Shown here: positions 29,126-52,630 of the stretch, in pieces
How the letters are laid out: each line of letters begins with the position of its first letter
Position numbering within the stretch: position 1 is the first letter of the stretch
Assembly (NCBI RefSeq): GCF_016401385.1
Contig: NZ_JAEACF010000001.1
Span: forward strand, 2,976,001-3,040,000
DNA: 64,000 bases
DNA from: Fictibacillus halophilus
Lineage (GTDB): Bacteria > Bacillota > Bacilli > Bacillales > Fictibacillaceae
Reading direction: 5' to 3'
Translations under genes and position numbers: made by a program
Notes under the pieces: model-generated
What the model was told of the DNA's origin: nothing
What the model saw: the letters and a program-made list of their open reading frames with translations, nothing else
The model's database searches: none

Positions 29126-29143
29126 GTACGATCATCCTCTCAA

Positions 29144-29165
29144 CTAATTAAGTGTACTAATTAAA
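29144..29165 (-). promoter_or_regulatory. Repeated CTAATTA element upstream of the flavin oxidoreductase
   Basis: Two direct copies of CTAATTAA/CTAATTAA-like sequence lie 13 nt apart around a GTGTAC centre, about 20 nt before the TTG start. It could be an operator for a MarR- or TetR-type regulator. The evidence is only the symmetry and position. Confidence 0.35.
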
Positions 29166-29332
29166 AAATCACCACCTTAACATGTTCGCTAAGCCTTGAA
29201 ACAATCCTTTTTTCTCATTTTGATGAGCATTAGGTAAAAATAAATATTACATTTATGTTACTGTCATTTTCTGACAACATTTTTTGAACAGCTTGTATAT
29301 AATCAATTTGAGTTAGGTCATTTGTCTCATCC

Positions 29333-29417
29333 TTCAGACAAGGGCAAACATTTTCGAAAGATATGGGCGCAAAGCCACGGGTCTAAGGCAACTGCTAGGA
29401 TCGCCGGGCTACCTGAA
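29333..29417 (+). promoter_or_regulatory. c-di-GMP-I (GEMM) riboswitch upstream of sinI
   Basis: P1 is TTCAG (29333-29337) with CTGAA (29413-29417). Inside are the family's conserved elements in order: AGGGCAAAC, CGAAAG (the GAAA-type tetraloop), GGGCGCAAAGCCACGGGTCTAA and GCCGGGCTACC with the tetraloop receptor. The end is only 14 nt from the GGAGGG ribosome binding site of sinI and no T-tract hairpin follows, so control is probably at translation. A possible promoter upstream is CTGACA (29271-29276) with TGTATA (29295-29300). Confidence 0.88.
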
Positions 29418-29444
29418 CATCACGCTTATCTGGAGGGAAATCTA

Positions 29445-29603
29445 ATGGAGAAAAAGACAACGTTAGATCGCGAGTGGATTCTTTTAATGAAGGAAGCTAA
29501 GGAAAACGGCATTACAAAGGAAGAAATTATGGATTTTTTAAAAAATCCCCAATTCATGACAATTGATGGATCTTTTTCACCAGAAAAGCTTGTCATCAAG
29601 TAA
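29445..29603 (+). CDS. sinI: SinI-like anti-repressor
   Basis: 52 aa, ATG seven nt after GGAGGG. LDREWILLMKEAKENGITKEEIMDFLKN matches the SinI helical hairpin (LDQEWVELMVEAKEANISPEEIRKYL in B. subtilis), which binds SinR and disrupts its tetramer so that biofilm matrix operons are expressed. A longer in-frame reading would translate the riboswitch and is rejected. It is followed 76 nt later by sinR, as in Bacillus. Confidence 0.9.
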   Translation: MEKKTTLDREWILLMKEAKENGITKEEIMDFLKNPQFMTIDGSFSPEKLVIK

Positions 29604-29679
29604 GAACTAGTACTTATTTACTTCCCTAAATATTGAAGATATAATTAAATTATTATGACTTCTAAAATGGGGAATGCAA

Positions 29680-30003
29680 ATGGTAATTGGGGAAAATTTA
29701 AAAAAGTACCGCACAGAAAAAGGCTTCTCCATGACTTCCTTAGCTGAAAAGGCTGGAGTAGCTAAATCTTACATAAGCGCATTAGAGCGAAATATTCAGC
29801 AAAACCCTTCCATTCAACTTCTCGAAAAGATCGCGGAGGTCCTTGATATTTCTGTCGATCATCTGATCAAAGAGGAAGTAAATAACGAAGAACTTGACCA
29901 AGAATGGGCCAATCTTGTAAAAGAAGCCATGGGTTCTGGTGTAAGCAAAGAGCAGTTTAAAGAGTTTCTCGAATTTAACAAATGGAAAAACAAACAAAAC
30001 TAA
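29680..30003 (+). CDS. sinR: SinR-like master repressor of biofilm formation
   Basis: 107 aa. GGGGA is best spaced to the ATG at 29680 (MVIGENLK). Residues 1-65 are a Cro/CI-type HTH (LKKYRTEKGFSMTSLAEKAGVAKSYISALERNIQQNPSIQLLEKIAEVLDISVDHL) close to B. subtilis SinR. Residues 73-105 (LDQEWANLVKEAMGSGVSKEQFKEFLEFNKW) are the SinI-like multimerisation helices. It represses matrix and exopolysaccharide genes until sequestered by SinI. A strong terminator follows. Confidence 0.93.
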   Translation: MVIGENLKKYRTEKGFSMTSLAEKAGVAKSYISALERNIQQNPSIQLLEKIAEVLDISVDHLIKEEVNNEELDQEWANLVKEAMGSGVSKEQFKEFLEFNKWKNKQN

Positions 30004-30029
30004 CCACCTGATGAAATCAGGTGGTTTTT
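30002..30029 (+). terminator. Rho-independent terminator of sinIR
   Basis: AACCACCTGAT and ATCAGGTGGTT form an 11-bp perfect stem with a GAA loop and a trailing T run. Confidence 0.92.
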
Positions 30030-30091
30030 ACGTTGTTGTTTTTATGGGTTGTCTTCGTCGGATGTACATAATGGAGTTTTTGTATTTGTGT

Positions 30092-44586: not shown

Positions 44587-44694
44587 CTCTTATTTCGAGC
44601 AGGCGGAGGGAATTAGCCCTATGAAGCCCGGCAACCACCTATTTTGTTAGGCACGGTGCTACATCTAACAGTTTTACAGACTGAAAGATAAGAG
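44587..44694 (+). promoter_or_regulatory. SAM-I (S-box) riboswitch
   Basis: P1 pairs CTCTTAT (44587-44593) with ATAAGAG (44688-44694). Conserved core elements appear in order: CGAGCAGGCGGAGGGA, GCCCTATGAAGCCCGGCAACC, GGTGCTACATC and CTGAAAGATAAGAG. The family binds S-adenosylmethionine and usually terminates transcription of methionine or cysteine genes. Here no such gene follows: the next CDS starts 470 nt later beyond a repeat element. Confidence 0.92.
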
Positions 44695-51887: not shown

Positions 51888-52379
51888 TTATTTTTTATTT
51901 ATATCAGACTCTTGAATTTCTTTTTGAATTGCTGAAGAGATGTCTGCTTTCTTTTGCTCGGAAGAACGTGTCGCATCAGTGCTCATGTTCTCGGTTTTTT
52001 TATTAACGGCTTCATTCTTTCTTTTCGTGATTTCAGCTAGTTCTTGTTTATAGTGTGTTTCAAGTTCTTTTTTCTTATCTTGAATGATCTTTTCTTTGTT
52101 AGTATCCAGATCCTTCTTGGCATCAGCAACGATCCCTTTTACCGCTATATTCACATTTTTGAGCAAGTCATTCTTCTCTTTGTTCAACTCACTCTCGATC
52201 TCAGATTGGTACGTATATTCCATAATCTTATTGTATAAGTCGTTTGCAAGATTTGGATTTGCCGCATACGCAGACGTAGTACCTATACCAAGTACGATTG
52301 TAGTCGCTAAAACAACCTTCGGCCATTTCTTAGCTGCCTTTTTCTTTGTGCTAAATTTCTCTTTACGTGATATTTCCAT
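51888..52379 (-). CDS. Secreted coiled-coil protein, unknown
   Basis: 163 aa. AAGGAAGGGG precedes the ATG. A basic N-terminus and hydrophobic helix (VVLATTIVLGIGTTSAYAA) with an AYA-A-type cleavage site form a signal peptide. The mature part is Lys/Glu-rich helix (ESELNKEKNDLLKNVNIAVKGIVADAKKDLDTNKEKIIQDKKKELETHYKQEL). No domain recognised. Confidence 0.65.
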   Translation of the reverse strand: MEISRKEKFSTKKKAAKKWPKVVLATTIVLGIGTTSAYAANPNLANDLYNKIMEYTYQSEIESELNKEKNDLLKNVNIAVKGIVADAKKDLDTNKEKIIQDKKKELETHYKQELAEITKRKNEAVNKKTENMSTDATRSSEQKKADISSAIQKEIQESDINKK

Positions 52380-52630
52380 AATAAATACCCCTTCCTTTAT
52401 TTAGAGAACGAATAAAGAAAGCGGTCGGTTGCGCTACTAGCTTCAGTTAATCCAAGCGCCCACATACAGAATAACCTTCACAGCTCCACACTTATCTAAT
52501 TATATTCTGCTATAAAATTACCACCGGCCCCATTCACTGTAAATGGGTATTTAGTAAGATATTACTATAAATAGTTTTTTTAGTATTTTATTTTAGAAAA
52601 GAAGATTGGTCGAAAAAGATGTGGAACGAA

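Follow-up and report, generated by a model that had tools for sequence, protein, structure and literature searches.

A predicted c-di-GMP-responsive leader of sinI in Fictibacillus halophilus and its recurrence among Bacilli

The sinI–sinR locus and its leader

The second messenger c-di-GMP is the bacterial "settle down" signal, and sinI is a gene of the biofilm switch. In the window, the whole 64,000-nucleotide stretch of the Fictibacillus halophilus genome that was analysed, a c-di-GMP-I aptamer directly precedes sinI, which is followed by sinR. The features of this locus, in window coordinates, are as follows.

29271–29303, +, likely sinI promoter: −35-like CTGACA (29271–29276), 21-nt spacer, −10 TATAAT (29298–29303)
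29322–29341, +, 5' hairpin UUGUCU:AGACAA, which competes with P1 and the anti-SD
29330–29338, +, anti-SD segment UCCUUCAGA, overlapping the P1 5' strand UUCAG (29333–29337)
29333–29416, +, c-di-GMP-I aptamer RF01051 (cmscan: 68.2 bits, E 3e-11; gathering score 35)
29413–29417, +, P1 3' strand CUGAA, pairing with UUCAG (29333–29337), which would act as an anti-anti-SD
29432–29437, +, SD core GGAGGG of sinI, starting 15 nt past the aptamer end and predicted to be sequestered by the anti-SD in the free state
29445–29603, +, sinI, SinR antagonist of 52 aa (PF08671, 41.2 bits against a cut-off of 31.4)
29617–29645, +, possible separate sinR promoter, TTTACT-17-TATAAT (10/12, consensus match only)
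29680–30003, +, sinR, matrix repressor of 107 aa (HTH_3 and SinI domain)
30002–30026, +, intrinsic terminator-like site where sinR ends (terminator scan)

The product of the first gene is a small protein that carries a SinI domain and is encoded beside sinR, in agreement with the initial annotation, which had called it a SinI anti-repressor. Its alignment with B. subtilis SinI (1b0n_B, E 0.0011) extends over 28 residues only. The second protein combines an HTH with a SinI-like C-terminal domain, and its nearest PDB sequence is SinR (1b0n_A, E 7.1e-37). These two proteins are the sole SinI-domain matches across the genome, where no SlrR-like paralogue was found.

The likely sinI promoter is omitted by the sigma-70 scan because its spacer exceeds 18 nt; that scan of 29130–30060 returned four promoter-like sites, compared with a mean of 2.5 in shuffles. 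As read from the leader sequences, the CTGACAA and TATAAT blocks are present in 17/18 genus genomes, the exception being G001. A further conserved block, ATTACATTT...TTAC at approximately 29246–29262, lies upstream of the promoter in the same proportion of the genus (17/18, again not in G001) and is perhaps the site of another regulator. The promoter is overlapped by a 0A-box-like TGTTGTCAGAA (29269–29279, −), with two mismatches to the consensus; the search for 0A boxes yielded no stronger site than this weak one. Added control of the promoter by Spo0A may be envisaged. For B. subtilis sinI, control by Spo0A is stated in the available part of PMC3163267, whereas the window sinI carries a c-di-GMP-I aptamer.

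The RF01051 match in the sinI leader is full length (model 1–87), and the conserved blocks GGGCAAAC, CGCAAAG, and CUACC align to the model. The equivalents of the Vc2 ligand contacts G20, A47, and C92 (numbering from an excerpt of PMC4744006) are residues mapped by eye only. The leader had initially been read as a class I c-di-GMP aptamer from its conserved blocks, with covariance-model scoring proposed as the check, and the score of 68.2 bits bears this out. The aptamer had also been said to end 14 nt before the sinI ribosome binding site with no terminator between; the distance is 15 nt, and the terminator scan of 29130–30060 detected no terminator-like site in the aptamer-to-sinI interval. 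A chance aptamer was rejected on the score together with recurrence in 18/18 genus genomes, and a terminator platform on the empty interval. An in-frame TTG ORF reading through the aptamer (29322–29603) was likewise set aside because the ATG at 29445 is preceded by an SD of its own. The whole genome holds six RF01051 matches in 3.92 Mb, and by our estimate the chance that an aptamer lies within 150 nt before a given gene on the same strand is about 1e-4.

Elsewhere in the genome, another c-di-GMP-I aptamer (L001, 1501–1589) precedes a GGDEF gene, to which a second GGDEF match is adjacent, and feedback on c-di-GMP synthesis is possible there; the genome contains 11 GGDEF matches. Other c-di-GMP-I aptamers precede genes for a VWA/TIG protein and a GH114-like protein. 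In addition, the window contains a c-di-GMP-II aptamer (52414–52496, −, 57.7 bits against a cut-off of 53.5), located 34 nt before an ORF of 163 aa without a Pfam match (51888–52379), so that both c-di-GMP riboswitch classes occur within one 64-kb window. A SAM riboswitch (RF00162, 77 bits) is found at 44587–44694 (+).

The predicted expression platform

In the predicted free leader, UCCUUCAGA (29330–29338) pairs with UCUGGAGGG (29429–29437) and hides the SD of sinI, and the anti-SD that sequesters it overlaps the aptamer stem. UUCAG is needed by both P1 and the anti-SD:SD duplex, so the two pairings are mutually exclusive, and ligand binding should shift the leader towards P1, exposing the SD. 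The sinI leader is thus modelled as a translational ON riboswitch for c-di-GMP, a reading to which we assign a probability of about 0.77. Without ligand, the segment just before the aptamer would hold the SD closed; with c-di-GMP bound, P1 (UUCAG:CUGAA) would be stabilised, the anti-SD would be taken away, and SinI would be translated. SinI would then antagonise SinR, and the matrix genes would be derepressed, probably including a GH16/GT2 cassette at the start of the window. The aptamer, the SD, the alternative pairings, the gene order, their conservation, and a SinR inverted repeat are read directly from the sequence; ligand binding is what we infer from them, and so is the ON sign, since the energies of the ligand and of tertiary contacts lie outside the folding model. 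Control at translation, as proposed in the initial annotation, agrees with the predicted SD-overlapping platform and the absent terminator.

In nearest-neighbour folding of the window leader without ligand, P1 is not formed, and imposing the aptamer core and P1 costs 9.2 kcal/mol (6.0–13.8 kcal/mol across the genus for the aptamer and P1), which ligand and tertiary contacts would have to supply; even so, the window SD reaches an openness of only 0.20–0.42, depending on RNA length. The 5' hairpin (29322–29341) competes as well. The window anti-SD match is weak relative to shuffles (fractions 0.076 and 0.057). Across the genus, the anti-SD:SD duplex ranges from −10.3 to −15.3 kcal/mol in 17/18 genomes and is −5.7 kcal/mol in G001; the shuffle fractions of the 17 leaders are 0.008–0.19 (window 0.076), and since these per-leader values are modest, the weight rests on conservation. 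The predicted openness of the free SD is 0.01–0.11 in 17/18 genomes and 0.25 in G001, and imposing the aptamer and P1 raises it in 17/18, including G001 but not G006 (0.11 both ways). The window structure, projected onto the ten leaders from the rest of the family, fits them only in part; among these, openness rises in eight, stays the same in G027, and falls in G018.

The opposite sign, an OFF switch in which c-di-GMP would lower SinI translation and the ligand-bound leader would hide the SD in another pairing, is unlikely. Such a switch would suit the window leader, where the SD is still 58–80% paired with the aptamer and P1 imposed, as well as G006, where it fails to open; Bc1 of B. thuringiensis, according to the available part of PMC11218506, reportedly has opposite effects on transcription and translation. 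However, in 16/18 genus genomes the SD is nearly closed in the free state and gains openness once the aptamer is imposed, and in G001 it opens too, from 0.25.

The comparison of 60 leaders also bears on the sign. Two arrangements were distinguished. In type A, as in the window, the anti-SD lies on the 5' side and uses the 5' strand of P1; in type B, the 3' strand of P1 pairs with the SD region, forming a hairpin CCUGAAAUAC-loop-GUAUUUUAGG. By thresholds set after the energies were seen, 30 leaders are strongly type A and 15 strongly type B, two of these being both, and 17 are neither strongly, which counts against the ON model. Type A is lacking in 13/15 type-B leaders, and none of the 18 genus leaders (−2.6 to −6.6) reaches the type-B threshold. 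In shuffles, 22/30 type-A pairings fall at or below 0.1, with G032a and G033 no different from chance, and 11/15 type-B pairings at or below 0.017. In either type, the anti-SD draws on a strand of P1 and should lose it when the ligand binds, leaving the SD free; the model predicts one sign, ON, for both, which speaks against OFF.

Furthermore, the two strands of P1 change in step across lineages (UUCAG:CUGAA, UUCAG:CUGGA, UCCAG:CUGGA, UUCGG:CUGAA, and UCUAG:CUAGA, listed without a null model). A P1 helix of at least four pairs occurs in 56/60 leaders within the windows searched and is absent in 4/60, and the SD pairing is also kept paired by substitutions across leaders.

An action of the aptamer mainly on transcript elongation or stability, through Rho or RNase access and with the SD effect secondary, is distinctly improbable. 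The excerpt of PMC11218506 reports such dual control by riboswitches of other kinds, but no intrinsic terminator separates the aptamer from sinI, and the short aptamer-to-SD gap (10–17 nt in the 18 genus leaders), combined with the conserved complementarity to the SD, also speaks against it. Least probable of all is a relic, an aptamer that has lost its control over sinI in this species: the 5' hairpin (29322–29341), seen among the genus leaders only in this genome and G015, and the P1 left unformed in silico without ligand would suit it, but the conserved blocks are intact at 68.2 bits and the aptamer is kept in 18/18 genus genomes with compensating changes in P1.

Recurrence of the aptamer before sinI

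In the genus, the aptamer lies directly before sinI in 18/18 genomes, with G001 departing from the others in promoter and platform. The further SinI-domain ORFs of the genus genomes (loci L058–L065) have no aptamer match. In the family (n = 34), 31 genomes have a SinI match, at least 30 an aptamer match, and at least 27 both, the whole-genome aptamer searches having scored part of the first-look candidates. The aptamer is located directly before a sinI in 27/27 of the family genomes with both matches; these belong to four genera, and one of the genomes shows the placement at two sinI copies. In four family genomes with SinI (G019, G020, G021, and G024), no aptamer match was found among the 92 candidates scored in each, nor in their scanned SinI loci.

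In the order, the aptamer occurs in 18 of the best 30 SinI loci, taken from at least 71 SinI genomes in a sample of 101. These loci hold 20 aptamers of the c-di-GMP-I or c-di-GMP-I-GGC model, and 20/20 are closely followed by a SinI ORF (starting no more than 110 nt from the aptamer; profile E 5.6e-13 or better). Outside the order, 8/18 loci, the best of at least 31 SinI genomes, contain the aptamer, and 8/8 precede a SinI-like ORF (within 130 nt; weakest E 3.7e-10). The SinI profile was built from the ORFs of 32 leaders of this study, and each E-value refers to a search of a handful of ORFs. Both sets of loci were ranked by SinI score, so the aptamer fractions are not those of random samples. 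Loci L176, L177, L179, L183, L185, L187, and L188 of the order were left out of the aptamer counts; L172 and L173, scanned additionally, gave no aptamer match.

Further aptamer–sinI pairs were recognised by coordinates, among the matches listed, in G110, G035, G061, G098, G058, G121, G084, and G062, and four more (G203, G309, G268, and G188) were added from a gapped pattern search after re-reading. That search matched 46/299 genomes of the order, mostly in sequence resembling coding DNA; beyond the genus, its matches were used only for these four and for G121 and G084, where they agree with the SinI coordinates. At both L134 and L136, two sinI genes stand in tandem, and a separate c-di-GMP-I aptamer accompanies each. 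In the sinI leaders of L144, L147, L154, L170, and L189, the c-di-GMP-I-GGC model was kept over c-di-GMP-I, and the ligand choice of such leaders may differ.

The Rossellomorea loci L007–L009 contain SinI without an aptamer match, and the B. subtilis control genome has a SinI match and no RF01051 match at E 0.001. The wiring had initially been described as direct and not known from B. subtilis, which holds for the control genome; the stronger sense, that it was wholly unrecorded, does not, since the available part of PMC4342826 lists a (c-di-GMP)-sinI riboswitch. Judged from the genomes compared, the placement of the aptamer before sinI is not local but widespread.

Candidate outputs, earlier records, and meaning

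The candidate SinR-repressed output lies at the beginning of the window.

156–1502, −, GT2 glycosyltransferase, candidate SinR-repressed output (ORF annotation)
1506–2336, −, GH16 glycosyl hydrolase, candidate SinR-repressed output (ORF annotation)
2518–2533, no strand, imperfect SinR inverted repeat GTTCTTT-AC-TGAGAAC (seen in the sequence)
2596–2611, no strand, SinR operator-like perfect inverted repeat GTTCTTT-TT-AAAGAAC, the only one in the window

Both repeats stand upstream of the GH16/GT2 cassette. Perfect repeats are rare by chance (one in the window against a mean of 0.033 in 60 simulated windows), and single SinR boxes are common (31 against a simulated mean of 28). In B. subtilis, the SinR site is GTTCTYT, bound best in inverted-repeat form, with a Kd of 300 nM, and SinI, encoded beside sinR as in the window, antagonises SinR (excerpt of PMC3163267); the window repeat is likened to these sites by its GTTCTYT boxes. 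The cassette at 0.2–2.3 kb, put forward at the outset as a conceivable output, gains support from the perfect repeat and is a likely target of the SinI–SinR switch, with SinR binding there being what we infer from its upstream sequence. Among ten relatives, in which 20–40 kb beside sinI was searched, an orthologous cassette was present only in G014 (76% and 85% identity), with three SinR boxes upstream, no perfect repeat, and a SinR-like gene near. The twenty 20-kb stretches searched, including one from contig 2 of this genome, contain five perfect and three one-mismatch SinR repeats, in 4/10 relatives. The neighbours of these repeats include two sugar transferases, an acyltransferase, and a nucleotidyl transferase, together with three others without a Pfam match over the cut-off. 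The genome also encodes a TasA-family protein, whose 3.6-kb locus (L190) has no perfect SinR repeat.

The aptamer class, the SinI–SinR switch, and sinI as a recorded, apparently unexamined, target are already known. In the literature searched for sinI or SinR with a c-di-GMP riboswitch, which excluded subscription papers, so that more may exist, the one direct mention was PMC4342826. There, a sentence and a line of Table 4 place a predicted (c-di-GMP)-sinI riboswitch among the RNA-seq-mapped 5'-UTRs of B. methanolicus MGA3. As in the window, a c-di-GMP riboswitch lies in the sinI 5'-UTR; however, the available part of that report concerns one species and says nothing of a platform, a sign, conservation, or a connection with SinR targets. 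In B. thuringiensis, sinI is up at high c-di-GMP (PMC7793685), and the excerpt of that paper makes no mention of a sinI riboswitch; the same holds for the available parts of PMC8876208, PMC10240345, PMC6143707, PMC4879592, PMC2885750, PMC2614493, and PMC12747935. The aptamer family (c-di-GMP-I, GEMM-I) is common to the window leader, Vc1/Vc2, and Bc1 of the B. cereus group, and of these, Vc1 and Bc1 affect gene expression (excerpts of PMC4744006 and PMC11218506). In the parts of these papers available, their target genes are other ones and Bc1 uses two terminators, whereas the window leader is predicted to act on an anti-repressor through a direct anti-SD platform.

In Paenibacillus, an 'antisense-acting' c-di-GMP-I riboswitch is assigned to a SinR homologue in the available part of PMC9943018; as in the window, a c-di-GMP-I aptamer lies beside a SinR gene. 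At L189 and in G062 (C1:179360–179854), the aptamer stands before a short sinI convergent with sinR. The Paenibacillus riboswitch is possibly the same sinI switch, with its sinI unannotated.

As far as seen, what is new is the prediction of the platform, the wide occurrence of the wiring, the distinction of two platform types, and the SinR site linked to it. We consider it slightly more likely than not that translational activation of sinI by c-di-GMP is the common, possibly ancestral, input to SinI–SinR across much of class Bacilli, realised by at least two interchangeable platforms, with B. subtilis as an exception that lost it. If this is true, the textbook matrix switch would at bottom be an effector of c-di-GMP. 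The parts are ordinary; the wiring is important and little noticed. Placed directly on sinI, a riboswitch would let a second messenger act on the SinI:SinR ratio through translation, and this would account for the way in which c-di-GMP could affect the matrix genes of many bacilli. A further suggestion is that, in these genomes, the SinR targets marked by inverted repeats of GTTCTYT can be regarded as an indirect regulon of c-di-GMP.
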